Shown here in pieces: positions 13,473-59,551 of a DNA stretch of 64,000 bases. The notes beneath the pieces were generated by a model. The model had not been told where the DNA came from and ran no database searches. It was given only the letters and a program-made list of their open reading frames with translations. The stretch spans positions 1 through 64,000 of the forward strand of contig JALSQW010000023.1 of the NCBI GenBank assembly GCA_026985095.1, given 5' to 3'. This DNA is from Acidimicrobiia bacterium (GTDB lineage Bacteria; Actinomycetota; Acidimicrobiia; Spongiisociales; UBA5794). Each line of letters opens with the position of its first letter. Within the stretch, counting starts at the first letter, position 1. A program made the position numbers and the translations under genes.

Positions 13473-13493
13473 TCCGGAAGAGGGAGTCCACAT

Positions 13494-13651
13494 CCCAGGG
13501 TTCACCACACCCCAAAAGGGGGCTCCCCAACCCAGGGTTCACCACACCCCAAAAGGGGGCTCCCCAACCCAGGGTTCACCACACCCCAAAAGGGGGGTCA
13601 CCAACCCAGGGTTCACCACACCCCTGAAGGGGGGTCACCAACCCAGGGTTC
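13494..13651. repeat. 37-bp tandem palindrome array, locus 1
   Basis: Five copies of the core CCCAGGGTT sit at exact 37-bp steps (TT at 13501, 13538, 13575, 13612, 13649); most are the full palindrome AACCCAGGGTT. Each interval also holds CCCCAAAAGGGG or CCCCTGAAGGGG, a small hairpin. There are no unique spacers, so this is not CRISPR. The last palindrome (13640-13650) ends 16 nt before the -10 of the MscS gene. A related array lies at 57146-57271. Confidence 0.92.
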
Positions 13652-13678
13652 GGGAGGTCGGGTGCCTACGATGCGGCG

Positions 13679-53969: not shown

Positions 53970-55315
53970 CACAACACCGGCAGGTACTCCTCGAGCTCGA
54001 ACCGGGAGACGTGCTGTTGGTAGTCGCTCCATTCCCGATGCTTGTTCCGCAGGAACCATTCGAACACGTGATCCCCCAGGGCCGCCCGGACCAGCTCAGA
54101 CGATTCCATCGCCCGTAAGGCGTCGGCCAGGTTCTCGGGGAGCCTCCGGATCCCCGCCGCGGAGCGTTCGCTCGTCGACATCGTCAACACGTCCTCGCCC
54201 ATCTCGGGCGGCAGCTCGTACGCGTTCTCCACTCCGGCCAACCCTGCCGCCAGGATCACCGAGAACGCCAGATACGGGTTGCACGCCGGGTCCGGCGAGC
54301 GGAACTCGATCCTGGTGGAGTCGATCTTGCCCCGCTTCGTCGTCGGGACCCGCACGAGGGCCGTCTGGTCGTTCCTGGCCCAGGTCTCGTAGATCGGAGC
54401 GTCGAAACCCCCGACGAGACGCTTGTAGGAGTTCACCCACTGGTTCGTCACCGCCGTGATCTCCCCGGCATGGTGGAGCAGCCCCGCGATGAACCCGCGC
54501 GCCACCTTCGACAATCCGTACGCATCCGACCCTTCGTGGAAGGCGTTCTCGTCCCCCTGGAACAGCGACAGATGCAGGTGCAGCCCCGAACCGTCGTAGC
54601 GTTCCAACGGCTTGGGCATGAACGTGGCGTAGATGCCGTGCTCCATCGCCACCTCCTTGACCGCCAGACGGGTGGTGACGAGGTTGTCGGCCATGGTCAA
54701 CGCGTCGGTGTACCGCAGGTCCAATTCGTGCTGGGAAGGCGACACCTCGTGATGAGAGAACTCGACGGGGATGCCCAACTTCTCGAGGGCCAGGATCGTG
54801 TCTCTCCGGTACTCCTGGGCGACATCGAGCGGCGTCAGATCGAAGTAGCCGCCCCGATCGAGCACCTTCGGTTCGGGCCCGGCATCGGCGAAGTAGAAGT
54901 ACTCGAGCTCCGGGCCGACGTAGAACGAGTATCCCAACTCTGCGGCTCGCTCGAGGTTGCGACGCAGAACGTGGCGAGGGTCGCCGGCGAAGGGCGCACC
55001 GTCGGGGGTCACGATGTCGCAGAACATGCGGGCCGTGTCCCCGCCCCGGCGCCATGGGAGGATCTGGAAGGTAGCCGGATCCGGCCGGGCCAGCATGTCG
55101 GCCTCGGAGATCCGTGAGAACCCGTCGATCGACGTCCCATCGAAACCGAGACCCTCGTCGAGCGCCACCTCCAGCTCCGCAGGGGTGATCGCGAAGGACT
55201 TCAGGAACCCTTGCACGTCGGTGAACCACAACCGGACGAACCGGATGCCGCGCTCCTCGACGGTGCGCAGCACGTAGTCCCGTTGACGGTCGGGCGCCGA
55301 TCGTGACGTGTCCAT
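53969..55315 (-). CDS. glnA: Type I glutamine synthetase
   Basis: 448 residues, GSI fold: beta-grasp N-terminus (FVRLWFTDVQG), latch and metal motifs GFDGTSIDGFS, GPELEYFYF, SHHEVSPSQHELDLRY and GSGLHLHLSLF, plus the C-terminal RIEFRSPDPACNPYLAFS. The length and the absence of a clear adenylylation-Tyr loop suggest the alpha-like class. It makes glutamine from glutamate, ammonia and ATP. TACGAT (55322-55327, minus strand) ends 6 nt before the ATG, so the mRNA is probably leaderless; glnR follows in the same operon. Confidence 0.94.
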   Translation of the reverse strand: MDTSRSAPDRQRDYVLRTVEERGIRFVRLWFTDVQGFLKSFAITPAELEVALDEGLGFDGTSIDGFSRISEADMLARPDPATFQILPWRRGGDTARMFCDIVTPDGAPFAGDPRHVLRRNLERAAELGYSFYVGPELEYFYFADAGPEPKVLDRGGYFDLTPLDVAQEYRRDTILALEKLGIPVEFSHHEVSPSQHELDLRYTDALTMADNLVTTRLAVKEVAMEHGIYATFMPKPLERYDGSGLHLHLSLFQGDENAFHEGSDAYGLSKVARGFIAGLLHHAGEITAVTNQWVNSYKRLVGGFDAPIYETWARNDQTALVRVPTTKRGKIDSTRIEFRSPDPACNPYLAFSVILAAGLAGVENAYELPPEMGEDVLTMSTSERSAAGIRRLPENLADALRAMESSELVRAALGDHVFEWFLRNKHREWSDYQQHVSRFELEEYLPVL

Positions 55316-55321
55316 GCCCGC

Positions 55322-55327
55322 ATCGTA
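55322..55327 (-). promoter_or_regulatory. -10 element of the leaderless glnA promoter
   Basis: TACGAT on the minus strand ends 6 nt before the glnA ATG. The GlnR box at 55366-55403 sits about 40-75 nt upstream, a usual activator distance. Confidence 0.55.
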
Positions 55328-55365
55328 CGATGAAGCTCGGCGTTCGCATACCCCCGACGGGGTCC

Positions 55366-55403
55366 GAAACACAGCGTTCACATTGCGGTTACCGCGACGA
55401 AAC
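55366..55403. promoter_or_regulatory. GlnR-type operator between glnA and glnII
   Basis: Pentamers GAAAC (55366), TTCAC (55377), GTTAC (55388) and GAAAC (55399) follow each other at exact 11-bp steps with 6-nt spacers. The last pair is a perfect GTTAC-n6-GAAAC GlnR core. The site lies 51-88 nt from the glnA start and 82-119 nt from the glnII start and could serve both. Confidence 0.8.
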
Positions 55404-55484
55404 CCCCGCAGGCGACACTGCCCGCCATGGCGTCGCCACGGCGTCGCCGTGCCCCGAGACACATCGGTGAAAGCGAGGAACCAC

Positions 55485-56495
55485 ATGGCGTACCGGGCCG
55501 AGTACATCTGGATCGACGGTCAGAAGCCGACCGCCAAGCTCCGTTCCAAGACCAAGGTCGTCCCCGAGGGTCAGGAACCCCCGATCTGGGGATTCGACGG
55601 CTCCAGCACCGAGCAGGCGCCGGGGAACTCGTCGGACTGCGTCCTGCGGCCCGTCAAGGTCGTCCCCGACCCGATCCGCGGTGGCCACGACGTCCTCGTG
55701 ATGTGCGAGGTCCTCACCGTCGACATGGAGCCGCACGAGTCGAACACCCGGGCGCCTCTGCAGACGGTGGCCGAACGCTACGCCGACCACGAACCGTGGT
55801 TCGGACTCGAGCAGGAGTACACGTTCTTCAAGGACGGTCGGCCCCACGGATGGCCGGTCATGGGCTTCCCCGCGCCCCAGGGTGGGTACTACTGCGGCAT
55901 AGGCGCCGACGAGATCTGGGGGCGTGACGTCGTCGAGGCCCACACCAAGGCGTGCATCGACGCCGGGTTGTCGATCTCGGGCACCAACGCCGAGGTGATG
56001 ATCGGGCAGTGGGAGTTCCAGATCGGTCCGCTGGGTCCCCTGGAGGTCGGCGATCAGATCTGGCTGGCCCGGTGGCTGCTGTACCGGATCGCCGAGGACT
56101 TCGACATCTCCGCCCATCTGGACCCCAAGCCCGTCGAGGGTGATTGGAACGGGGCCGGGATGCACACGAACTTCTCCACCAAGGAGATGCGTGAGTCCTA
56201 CGACGCCATCATCGCCGCCTGCGAGGCGTTGGGGAAGCGGGCCGACGAGCACATCAAGAACTACGGGGCCGGGATCGAGAAGCGACTCACGGGCCTGCAC
56301 GAGACCGCCCCATGGACCGAGTACAGCTACGGCGTGTCCGACCGGGGCGCATCGGTCCGGATCCCCTGGCAGGTCGCCAAAGAGGGCAAGGGCTACATCG
56401 AGGACCGGCGACCCAACGCCAACGCCGACCCGTACGTGGTTGCACGGCTCATCACCGACACGGTGTGCTCGTACCTGGAAGAGGCCGGCAGCTGA
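55485..56495 (+). CDS. glnII: Type II (eukaryotic-like) glutamine synthetase
   Basis: 336 residues, the GSII class found in plants, animals and some Actinomycetota and Rhizobiales. Conserved parts: YIWIDGQ at the N-terminus, IWGFDGSSTEQA, FGLEQEYTFF (about 105-114), AEVMIGQWEFQIGP (about 167-180), WNGAGMHTNFS and DRGASVRIPW. The ATG follows GCGAGGAA. Divergent from glnA with a shared GlnR-type operator; having both GSI and GSII under GlnR is the Streptomyces pattern. Confidence 0.95.
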   Translation: MAYRAEYIWIDGQKPTAKLRSKTKVVPEGQEPPIWGFDGSSTEQAPGNSSDCVLRPVKVVPDPIRGGHDVLVMCEVLTVDMEPHESNTRAPLQTVAERYADHEPWFGLEQEYTFFKDGRPHGWPVMGFPAPQGGYYCGIGADEIWGRDVVEAHTKACIDAGLSISGTNAEVMIGQWEFQIGPLGPLEVGDQIWLARWLLYRIAEDFDISAHLDPKPVEGDWNGAGMHTNFSTKEMRESYDAIIAACEALGKRADEHIKNYGAGIEKRLTGLHETAPWTEYSYGVSDRGASVRIPWQVAKEGKGYIEDRRPNANADPYVVARLITDTVCSYLEEAGS

Positions 56496-56511
56496 TCGAT
56501 CGTCGCGGCGC

Positions 56512-57087
56512 CTACGGCGTCGCCGCCTGCACGGCGTTCAACGCGGCCGTCAGCGCCGCCGCCTTGGCGTCGAAGTCCTCCACGGCTCGACGGCGGAGGC
56601 TGCCGTCGTCGGGAGCGCGGAGACCGTCGATGACGGCGTCCGAGGCGGTGACGAGATCGGTGGCGGCCGCCTGCGCCGCAGGCCACAGATCCGGGTAGCC
56701 GTTGGCGTCGGGGACCTCGGTGGCGTCGATCTCCGACGCCAGGGTCTCGGCCCTGGCCTTGACGTCCTCGAAGCCGGCCAGCGCCTGGTCGAAGGCGATG
56801 TCTCGCGCCTCCCATGCCTCGTTGGTGGCGTGAAGGTCCGATTGGATCTCGGTGGTGACCCCCTGGAATCGCTCCACCTCTCCGAGGAACGCCCGGATGT
56901 CGGAAGGAAGCGTCGTCGAGGTGGTGGTGGGTGGCTCGGTGGTGGTCGTCGTCGACGAGGTCGACGTCGTGGACGCGGCGATGTCGGCGGGCGGCAGGGC
57001 GTTCACGAAGACGTAGGTGAACCCGAGCAACCCGACGATCACCAGCGGCAGGATCCAGCGGCCGTGTTTGGGGTCTTCCTTGCTCAC
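56512..57087 (-). CDS. Membrane-anchored protein of unknown function
   Basis: 191 residues: one N-terminal membrane helix (about 10-28, ILPLVIVGLLGFTYVFV), a Ser/Thr linker (about 38-62, poly-Thr), and an Ala/Asp/Glu-rich helical domain (about 65-190) with no family recognised. I prefer the GTG at 57087 because TAACCT (57096-57101, minus strand) lies 8 nt away; the ATG at 57093 two codons upstream would be only 2 nt from that hexamer. The longer open frame upstream is translated 37-bp repeat and not real protein. Confidence 0.65.
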   Translation of the reverse strand: MSKEDPKHGRWILPLVIVGLLGFTYVFVNALPPADIAASTTSTSSTTTTTEPPTTTSTTLPSDIRAFLGEVERFQGVTTEIQSDLHATNEAWEARDIAFDQALAGFEDVKARAETLASEIDATEVPDANGYPDLWPAAQAAATDLVTASDAVIDGLRAPDDGSLRRRAVEDFDAKAAALTAALNAVQAATP

Positions 57088-57145
57088 GGGCATGGAGGTT
57101 AGGAGGTTCCACCGTGATCGTCGGCATCTGCCGCACCCGCCCTCG

Positions 57146-57271
57146 CGAACCCAGGGTTCGCCACACCCCTGAAGGGGGCTCCCCAACCCAGGGTTCACCA
57201 CACCCCTGAAGGGGGCTCCCCAACCCAGGGTTCGCCACACCCCTGAAGGGGGCTCCCCAACCCAGGGTTCG
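57146..57271. repeat. 37-bp tandem palindrome array, locus 2
   Basis: Four AACCCAGGGTT palindromes at exact 37-bp steps (TT at 57157, 57194, 57231, 57268). Each interval carries CCCCTGAAGGGG. The first copy extends to a perfect 15-bp palindrome (57146-57160). The array lies between divergent genes; its last palindrome ends 18 nt before the -10 of the SDR gene, mirroring the array at 13494-13651, about 44 kb away. Confidence 0.92.
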
Positions 57272-57299
57272 CGGAGACGGCCGCCGCTAGCCTGGCCGC

Positions 57300-58028
57300 A
57301 TGGAGTTGGCTGGGCGGAGCGCCATCGTCACCGGCGGAGCGGTCCGGGTCGGACGCGCCATCACCCTCGCCCTTGCCGCCGCCGGCGTCGACGTCTTCAT
57401 CCACTACAACCGCTCGGCCGGACCCGCCCAAGACACCGCCGCCGAAGCCCGCTCCTTGGGCGTCCGCACGGCGATCGGCTCGGTCGACCTCTCCGACCCC
57501 GCCGCCGCCCCCGATCTCGTCGCCATGGCCAGCGACGCCCTCGGCCCGGTGAGCTTGCTGGTCAACTCCGCCTCCGGCTTCCCCGAAGACAGCCTCGCCG
57601 ATCTCACCCTCGACCGCTGGCGGCACACCCACGATCTGACCCTCGCCTCGCCGATCTTCCTCACCCAGGCCTTCGCCGCCGCCCTGGGCGACAACGACGG
57701 CGCCGTCGTCAACGTGACCGACGTCAAGACCCACCGTCCCTACACGAAGCGCTTCTCCTACATCGTCGCCAAAGGCGGCATCGACACCTTCACCCGGGCC
57801 GCCGCCGTCGCCCTCGCCCCCACGATCCGTGTCAACGCCGTCGCCCTCGGGGTCATCCTCCCTCCCACCGGCGAAGACGAGACCTACGCAGCCCGGCTCG
57901 CCGACGAGCTCCCACTCCGACGAATCGGAGGGACCGGACCAGTCGCCGACACCGTGCTGTTCCTCCTCCGCAACGATTTCCTCACCGGCGAGATCGTCCG
58001 CGTCGACGGTGGCGGGCACCTCGTCTGA
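57300..58028 (+). CDS. SDR oxidoreductase, pteridine reductase/FolM-like
   Basis: 242 residues. NAD(P)-binding TGGAVRVGRAITLAL (about 11-25) with VFIHYNRS, NSASGF, the catalytic YIVAK (Tyr, Lys about 158-162) and the C-terminal VDGGGHL. The arrangement GGAxRxGRAI and HYNRS resembles pteridine reductase PTR1 and FolM (dihydromonapterin reductase), and folB and folKE follow directly, so a pterin substrate is plausible. TAGCCT (57288-57293) ends 6 nt before the ATG; the 37-bp array is just upstream. Confidence 0.82.
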   Translation: MELAGRSAIVTGGAVRVGRAITLALAAAGVDVFIHYNRSAGPAQDTAAEARSLGVRTAIGSVDLSDPAAAPDLVAMASDALGPVSLLVNSASGFPEDSLADLTLDRWRHTHDLTLASPIFLTQAFAAALGDNDGAVVNVTDVKTHRPYTKRFSYIVAKGGIDTFTRAAAVALAPTIRVNAVALGVILPPTGEDETYAARLADELPLRRIGGTGPVADTVLFLLRNDFLTGEIVRVDGGGHLV

Positions 58029-58067
58029 CCGCCGTCGGTGACCGCCTTCGGCGGTAGGGTTCACGCC

Positions 58068-58430
58068 ATGGAACACGACCGCATCCACATCAAGGACCTC
58101 CTCGTCATGGGGATCATCGGGATCAACCCCGAAGAACGGCTCGACCCGCAGGAGATCCTCGTCAACGTCACCATGTGGGCCGACACCCGCGCCGCGGCAG
58201 CCTCGGACGACATCGCCGACGCCGTCAACTACCGGACCATCAACAAGGCCCTCATCGCCCACATCGAGAGCACCCGACCCATGCTCGTCGAGCGCCTCGC
58301 CGACGAGCTCGCCGACCTCTGCCTCGAGCTCGACCAGCGCATCCACCGGGTCGAACTCACCGTCGAGAAGCCCGGAGCCCTCCGCCACGCCCGCTCCGTC
58401 GGCGTCACCGTCACCCGCACCCGCACATGA
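58068..58430 (+). CDS. folB: Dihydroneopterin aldolase
   Basis: 120 residues of the FolB family: [24 protein letters not shown] at the N-terminus (about 4-27) with the catalytic Glu/Tyr region [17 protein letters not shown], and [13 protein letters not shown]. Cleaves dihydroneopterin to 6-hydroxymethyl-dihydropterin plus glycolaldehyde. TAGGGT (58055-58060) ends 7 nt before the ATG although the SDR gene stops only 39 nt upstream, so it probably has its own start site. Its stop overlaps the folKE start. Confidence 0.94.
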
Positions 58431-59551
58431 CCCACCGGCGCACCCACGCCCATGCGGTCGTGTCGATCGGTTCGAACATCGACAAGGAACGCAACGTCCC
58501 CGAAGCGATCCGGCGGATGCGTCGGCACGCCCACCTGGAGCTCCGTGCCGTGAGCCCCGTCTACCGCTCTCCCGCCATCGGTGGGCCACCCGACAGCCCC
58601 GACTTCTACAACGCCGCCGCCCTCGTCTGCACCGACCTCGCCCCGGCCGAGCTGCGGGCGCACCTCCGCAGCATCGAGGGCGCGATGGGTCGGGTCCGCA
58701 CCGACGACCCCAACGCCCCTCGCACCATCGATCTCGACGTCGTCTACTACGACGACCAGGTCGTCGAAGGCGACGGCTGGACGATCCCCGACCGGAATGC
58801 GACCGCCTACCCGCACGTTGCCATCCCTGTCGCCGACGTGGCACCCGACCTGGTTCACCCGACCGACGGTCGGACCGCCACCCGGATCGCGGCAGACCTC
58901 GATGATGGGAGCGTGGAACCCGTGAACGCCATCCAACTCTCCGGACCGTACGATGCCGGCCTCGCCTCGGACTTCGACGCCGTCGAAGACGTCTACGCAC
59001 CCCGCCTCGAAGCGATCGTCCGGGACCAACTCGTCGAGATCGGCGAGGACCCCGACCGGGAGGGCCTCCAACGCACACCCCTCCGGGTCGCCAAGGCCCT
59101 CGACTTCCTGACCAGCGGCTACACGACCTCCCTCGAGGAGGTCATCAACGACGCCATCTTCGATGCCGAAGGAGCCGAAGAGATGGTGCTCGTCAAGGAC
59201 ATCGAGTTCTACTCGATGTGCGAGCACCACATGCTGCCCTTCTTCGGCAAGGCCGCCGTCGCCTACCTGCCGAAGGGCAAGATCATCGGGCTCTCGAAGA
59301 TCGCCAGGCTCGTGGACCTGTTCGCCCGGCGGCTGCAGGTCCAAGAACGGCTCACCAACCAGATCGCCGACGCGTTGACCGAAACGCTCGATCCTCACGG
59401 CGTCGCGGTCGTGCTGCAGGGGCGCCACCTGTGCATGATGATGCGCGGCGTCCAGAAGCAGGACTCCGCCATGATCACCTCGGCCATGCGCGGCACCTTC
59501 AAGGAGGACGCCCGCACCCGAAGCGAGTTCCTGGACCTGACACGGGGCTGA
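58427..59551 (+). CDS. folKE: Bifunctional HPPK-GTP cyclohydrolase I (FolK-FolE fusion)
   Basis: 374 residues in one uninterrupted frame. Residues about 8-160 are HPPK ([35 protein letters not shown]). Residues about 185-374 are GTP cyclohydrolase I ([19 protein letters not shown], zinc motif [36 protein letters not shown]). These are the first and a later step of folate synthesis. ATGA overlap with folB. A GTG at 58922 preceded by GGGAG might also start a separate GTP cyclohydrolase I. A FolKE protein is known from Lactococcus; fusion here is seen directly, bifunctionality is inferred. Confidence 0.9.

Follow-up and report, generated by a model that had tools for sequence, protein, structure and literature searches.

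Arrays in the window

The 64,000-nt stretch of DNA analysed here (the window) contains a tandem palindrome array on the forward strand at 57148..57269. It consists of four cores, each an exact match to AACCCAGGGTT (57148..57158, 57185..57195, 57222..57232 and 57259..57269), and three intervals of 26 nt (57159..57184, 57196..57221 and 57233..57258); TRF returned a row at 57148–57272 with a period of 37 and 97% matches. The four units at 37-bp spacing of a preliminary description of this DNA are thus borne out by exact cores starting at 57148, 57185, 57222 and 57259. Within the first interval, CCCCTGAAGGGG forms an inverted repeat whose centre lies half a period from those of the cores. A second array of the same family, again with four exact AACCCAGGGTT cores, lies at 13529..13650 (+), and a degenerate core, ATCCCAGGGTT, is found one period upstream of it (13492..13502). 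Allowing up to one mismatch, the AACCCAGGGTT core has 17 matches in the window, a number reached by none of 100 dinucleotide shuffles (mean 0.39). No Rfam match was obtained in window positions 55000–59000 or in four loci of the nuclease element described below.

The arrays precede two host genes that are not part of the element, a short-chain dehydrogenase gene (SDR; PF13561; 57300..58028, +) adjoining folB, and a gene for an MscS-type channel (PF00924; 13679..14581, +). Both had been labelled correctly in the preliminary description, which also ascribed the same promoter geometry to the two loci. The spacing given there applies to the first array, where 18 nt separate the end of the last core (57269) from TAGCCT (from 57288), but at the second array it is 16 nt, followed by TACGAT at 13667.

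Genome-wide distribution

The Acidimicrobiia genome from which the window derives (G000; 2.93 Mb, 70 contigs) contains 105 exact core pairs and 159 core sites. From 100 of the 105 pairs, 38 arrays of two to six cores were delimited, which makes 38 a minimum for the genome; together they account for 146 of the 159 core sites, so that solitary cores are rare or absent. The two arrays of the preliminary description are therefore real, but they are members of a dispersed family and not merely a pair. Within the order, 19 of 138 genomes have exact core pairs. Scanning 84,980 species genomes, a set from which the window's own genome may be absent, gave 75 stretches, nearly all from Acidimicrobiia MAGs; one exact core pair was seen in a record with a non-actinobacterial name (L175, Exilibacterium sp. 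MAG), which may reflect contamination of the bin, a wrong label or horizontal transfer. In genus g24 (L216, L219, L225) the cores are doubled head to tail as AACCCTGGGTTGAACCCTGGGTT, another packing of the same palindrome.

None of the 38 arrays in G000 lies within a gene as predicted by an ORF finder. Thirty-three of them have predicted genes on both sides, arranged convergently in 9 cases, in tandem in 20 and divergently in 4. Compared with intergenic gaps of 60 bp or more in nine sampled parts of the same genome (24 convergent, 118 tandem, 63 divergent), these 33 arrays are enriched in convergent gaps (Fisher p=0.027) and depleted in divergent ones (p=0.035), a placement resembling that of REPs. 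The mixed gene contexts and the unequal spacing in the window (18 vs 16 nt) show that promoter geometry is not a property of the family; together with the shortage of divergent gaps, they disfavour a function as promoter operators.

The orientation of the arrays, given by the core's central base (A or T), reverses on C23 somewhere from 57 to 141 kb, a stretch that includes dnaA (75 kb) and in which the GC3 skew is reversed as well; it is uniform on all nine other contigs with several arrays (C9, C12, C18, C19, C32, C35, C53, C56 and C58). This pattern might suggest that the repeats mark chromosome polarity as KOPS-like or fork-related binding sites. The gene-strand-corrected GC3 skew, however, shows clear agreement for no contigs other than C23 (near dnaA) and C18, is near zero on C12, C56, C9 and C35 and contradictory on C58. 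Since the repeats bounding a gene and the replacement of intervals, both described below, would also be left unaccounted for, we regard a polarity signal as very improbable.

Comparison with a sister species

The core and the period (35–37) are common to several genera, whereas the intervals differ. We compared G000 with the sole other genome of its genus in the set, G001 (JALVQZ), represented by 31 array loci that were found via exact A-centred cores, which makes the invariance of the core partly a product of the search. Arrays are present in G001 at no fewer than 22 of the 38 G000 array sites, with flanks mostly 82–94% identical near the array edges. Despite this common ancestry of position, the intervals at orthologous sites are no more alike between the two species (0.665) than those at non-orthologous sites (0.656). 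Within one genome, by comparison, likeness is 0.77–0.82 across loci and 0.91–0.93 inside arrays. The predominant period is 37 in G000 and 36 in G001.

Dispersed arrays at inherited positions thus undergo concerted evolution, and the type of interval is genome-specific. The preliminary description had noted that the core is kept while the interval diverges; this effect proved much stronger than was visible there, the intervals being replaced wholesale between species. Nor can the arrays be put down to a mobile repeat that recently left identical copies, as the copies differ and the shared sites are inherited between the species. Array sites common to different genera are few, with one clear case between G000 and G026. 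The stability of array positions between the two congeners leaves recent movement to new sites without support.

The central hairpin of the interval scored on average above shuffled sequences in G000, G001 and G122. It did not do so in G026, and the idea of covarying hairpins throughout the intervals was dropped on this account. In G001, an order of A-centred cores, an inner-end unit (see below) and T-centred cores is frequent, and whole arrays then form a large inverted repeat (L104, L118, L147, L162, L168 and L136).

The partner gene

Comparison of the genes neighbouring arrays revealed one gene family that recurs in four genera (G000, G026, G122 and JANTGE). In G000 it is located outside the window, at C9:17760–18668. 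The protein of approximately 300 amino acids combines an N-terminal AbiEi_4 winged helix with a C-terminal MTES_1575/DUF559 nuclease, a putative Vsr/EDxHD-like domain of the PD-(D/E)XK type. AbiEi_4 and MTES_1575 were present in all 28 aligned members and DUF559 in 22, although the MTES_1575/DUF559 scores were under the curated cut-offs for the three proteins examined; PADLOC AbiEi models match the family with values down to 1e-29. Residues D233, E244, D246, H251, D260 and R261 are invariant in the 28 members. The best match of the nuclease part among solved structures was 3r3p, deposited as 'Mobile intron protein', with a weak E value of 0.005; we take this entry to be the homing endonuclease I-Bth0305I. 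A structure predicted from three sequences was too poor for use (pLDDT 56). Between G000 and G001 the nuclease is 74% identical, whereas 82 neighbouring orthologues have a median identity of 91.8%; the nuclease is therefore fast-evolving relative to its neighbours.

Pfam searches of seven neighbouring genes at three loci did not detect an AbiEii toxin domain, which led us to rule out an AbiE toxin-antitoxin system. Among viral contigs, 24 stretches fitted the peptide patterns of the family, and none encoded a relative. The elements L214, L217 and L218 adjoin apparent tRNA genes, as read from their flank sequences.

G000 and G122 represent different families, and both have arrays to the left and right of the nuclease gene. 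The gene is bounded on either side by the same cores and intervals as make up the arrays; judging from the sequences, a genome's arrays have an interval similar to the one at its own nuclease gene. The preliminary description had suggested that the MscS and SDR genes may share a regulator or a nucleoid-organising protein, and had recommended looking for a conserved DNA-binding protein gene in genomes with arrays. Such a gene exists, namely that of the AbiEi-type winged-helix nuclease; a shared action at promoters, however, is not supported by the gene contexts of the arrays. As the DNA-binding candidate is itself equipped with a nuclease domain and encoded between copies of the repeats, the finding points to an element composed of repeats and an enzyme.

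The arrays could nevertheless be operators through which an AbiEi-like protein or another regulator controls MscS, SDR and other genes, or by which it organises the nucleoid, the nuclease domain being incidental. AbiEi is known to act as an autorepressor and to bind inverted repeats (PMC3985639, in excerpt); the cores are strictly kept, array sites are conserved in the sister species, and both window arrays stand immediately upstream of genes. Operators would, however, hardly be expected to avoid divergent double-promoter gaps and to favour convergent gene ends, nor to differ in promoter distance even between the two window arrays. Moreover, the repeats occupy both sides of a gene and are patchy within a genus, being present in G026, while no exact core pair was found in six of its congeners. 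We consider an operator function unlikely.

An enzyme gene flanked by repeats and accompanied by dispersed copies is also what the REPtrons/TIRtrons display (PMC3733652, in excerpt), and the arrays might belong to a RAYT/IS200-type element whose usual Y1 transposase acts in trans. A search for Y1_Tnp (PF01797), positive in 5 of 14 control genomes, detected the domain in G009 but in none of the other 59 genomes of the 60 searched, among them the three richest in arrays, G000, G001 and G026. This candidate was consequently rejected, and we give it next to no chance of being correct.

Repeats flanking the gene

The reading of 30 high-scoring loci gave a common layout: core, interval, an inner end similar to AGCCCAC, the gene, the reversed inner end, interval and core. 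The central CCCNGGG is constant, and the outer letters are specific to lineages (AACCC, TACCC, GCCC). An inner-end motif, AACCGTGGGCY, was located at most 80 bp from the array in 7 of 7 cases in G000, 32 of 33 in G001, 3 of 4 in G026 and 2 of 2 in G122. Because this motif is almost confined to the surroundings of arrays, many arrays carry the end of the gene-bearing form.

The generality of the flanking repeats was assessed with displaced flanks and mismatched flank pairs as controls. The homologues of the order form two sets, a high-scoring one with 220 bits or more and a lower-scoring one. The former was represented by 48 loci (30 chosen automatically and 20 picked by hand, minus two with short flanks), the latter by 19 'background' loci (20 picked by hand from the same list, one dropped); 28 further loci represent the rest of the Actinomycetota (30 returned, two belonging to the order left out). 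Repeats matching between the two flanks exceeded all 44 displaced controls at 40 of the 48 high-scoring loci, all 17 displaced controls at 17 of the 19 lower-scoring loci, and all 25 displaced controls at 13 of the 28 loci elsewhere in the phylum, where the remaining 15 did not. A score for palindromes only was weaker and lay above all controls in 10 of 48, 12 of 19 and 3 of 28 cases, respectively. The 20 lower-scoring family members proved unusable as a control, since they are also flanked by repeats (subfamily vs background, p=0.04).

The lower-scoring clade has palindromes of its own, such as TTCTTGCGTA-N26-TACGCAAGAA. This pattern is dispersed in 25 of 137 genomes with up to 26 copies, and a reversed-pattern control gave none. 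A gene of the family (E<=1e-25) is present in 24 of the 25 genomes with N26 palindromes compared with 62 of the 112 others (p=6e-5). Where exact core pairs occur, 18 of 19 genomes have a gene of the family, G066 being absent from the matches. On a tree of 68 nuclease proteins, 44 of which could be labelled by a single palindrome type on both sides, the type (CCCNGGG or TCTTGCG) changes once, while shuffled labels require at least five changes. G026 encodes nucleases of both clades, each with its own palindrome on the flanks, and has both palindromes dispersed through the genome (45 core pairs and 21 TTCTTGCGTA palindromes).

These data also bear on the view that the palindromes are passive, having spread by replication slippage and ordinary recombination, and that the nuclease gene, defence-related or antitoxin-like, merely sits at a hot spot. 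Slippage does homogenise tandem repeats and would suit the identity within arrays (0.91–0.93). It does not, however, give some 38 loci scattered over a genome one common type and period peculiar to that genome, and one would not expect a single protein family to be accompanied by matched repeats across the phylum, with the palindrome type tracking its tree. A passive origin appears improbable, slightly more so than an operator function.

Gene-bearing and gene-free sites

In genus g6, the nuclease gene is present at site 1 in four of seven genomes and at site 2 in six of seven; at site 2, the far flank lies beyond the contig end in three of the six gene-bearing genomes. Two gene-free genomes, G032 at site 1 and G101 at site 2, show one slightly degenerate core-like sequence between the same flanks, and in a third, G102, site 1 has just a weak core match. 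A single core where the gene is missing implies that the gene sits between two cores in the manner of an array interval. The gene-free sites could reflect either loss or a state before insertion. The site 1 flanks in G101 (L272, G101:C232) enclose an unrelated tandem hairpin array, GGACCGGC..GCCGGTCC with GCAGTTCCCGCAGGAAACTGC units.

A model for array maintenance

The repeats are associated with the nuclease gene, as the above results demonstrate. We think it probable that the arrays are dispersed non-autonomous repeats of a small element whose single gene encodes the AbiEi-winged-helix/Vsr-EDxHD-like nuclease, and that they are homogenised by copying which this nuclease drives. The AbiEi-type winged helix would bind pairs of 11-bp cores approximately 26 bp apart, and the Vsr-like domain would cut or nick at the core; the CCWGG inside the core is reminiscent of the Vsr recognition site. 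Repair templated by another array or by the gene-bearing copy might then insert core-delimited units and overwrite old ones. Binding, cutting and repair of this kind would account for the spread of the arrays, their tandem growth and their concerted evolution. They would explain why cores and spacing are kept while intervals are free, why sites are inherited and each genome has one interval type, and why the nuclease evolves fast.

The geometry is in line with excerpts of a study of AbiEi, which is reported there to bind 11-bp inverted repeats 27 bp apart and whose winged helix is proposed to contact 11 bp (PMC3985639). The core-N25/26-core arrangement and the N26 palindromes come near to these values.

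The arrays appear to be a new kind of self-copying genetic element and not gene switches. A wider proposition, to which we assign about even chances, is that such elements, mobile or domesticated, exist throughout the Actinomycetota. In each, the AbiEi domain would guide a Vsr/EDxHD-like nuclease to 11-bp cores and thereby move its own gene and core-delimited units, and dozens of arrays would evolve as one population, forming an independently arisen REPIN-like system with an unrelated enzyme.

To our knowledge, REP/REPIN sequences are the main bacterial case in which a vertically inherited enzyme maintains a population of palindromic repeats, and one enzyme family (RAYT) has so far been linked to them. 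The enzyme acting on CGTC-type REPs is described as not known (PMC3733652, in excerpt). Confirmation of another enzyme family, unrelated to RAYT and with repeats of its own, would mean that such populations arise repeatedly. It would also provide a function for the many 'AbiEi / DUF559' proteins that at present bear an antitoxin-like label, as well as a natural case of genome-wide concerted evolution at dispersed bacterial loci whose driver can be tested through one gene.

Relation to other repeat systems

ERIC, RUP, Correia and RPE are MITE-like or other small palindromic repeats of bacteria. Like the arrays, MITEs and these sequences are small inverted repeats located between genes and akin to the termini of some larger element, and terminal inverted repeats, as expected for DDE-type IS elements and MITEs, are present here in the form of the flank-to-flank repeats. 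The arrays differ in their partner enzyme, in the tandem order of core, interval and core, and in the genome-wide replacement of the interval type in concert. Full reading of three loci showed no gene between the repeats other than that of the AbiEi-nuclease, and hence no DDE transposase there.

With type IV toxin-antitoxin systems of the AbiE type, as far as excerpts describe them, the element has in common the N-terminal AbiEi_4 domain and 11-bp sequences approximately 26–27 bp apart. AbiE places AbiEi beside AbiEii, however, whereas here the protein has a nuclease C-terminus and, in the seven neighbours at three loci mentioned above, no AbiEii partner. The catalytic domain is weakly similar to that of I-Bth0305I (EDxHD/Vsr-like; 3r3p, E 0.005), with conserved E, D, H and D residues. 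For I-Bth0305I, an exceptionally long target, close to 60 bp, has been reported (PMC3943268, in excerpt). In contrast to enzymes of this type, the family is associated with neither intron nor intein, has an AbiEi domain in place of NUMODs, and possesses its own bounding repeats and dozens of dispersed arrays. A search conducted mostly at the level of titles and abstracts found no literature linking AbiEi, DUF559 or Vsr-like proteins to dispersed repeats.

The closest parallel is offered by the REPtrons/TIRtrons, in which, according to excerpts of PMC3733652, a single enzyme gene is likewise bounded by palindromic or inverted repeats and non-autonomous copies occupy intergenic gaps, often tandem or convergent ones. 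REP-type repeats are also reported to co-evolve with their enzyme (PMC3733652, PMC8266576, both in excerpt). The enzyme of REPtrons/TIRtrons is a Y1/HUH protein, whereas the present one joins an AbiEi winged helix-turn-helix to a putative Vsr-like nuclease in genomes (G000, G001, G026) without a detected Y1_Tnp. A REP forms a hairpin with an unpaired GTAG or CGTC tag, while the repeat described here is a near-perfect 11-bp palindrome with a period of 35–37 bp, and no such tag was noticed beside the cores read. The element would function in the manner of a REPtron equipped with a homing-type enzyme, without belonging to the REPtron family.
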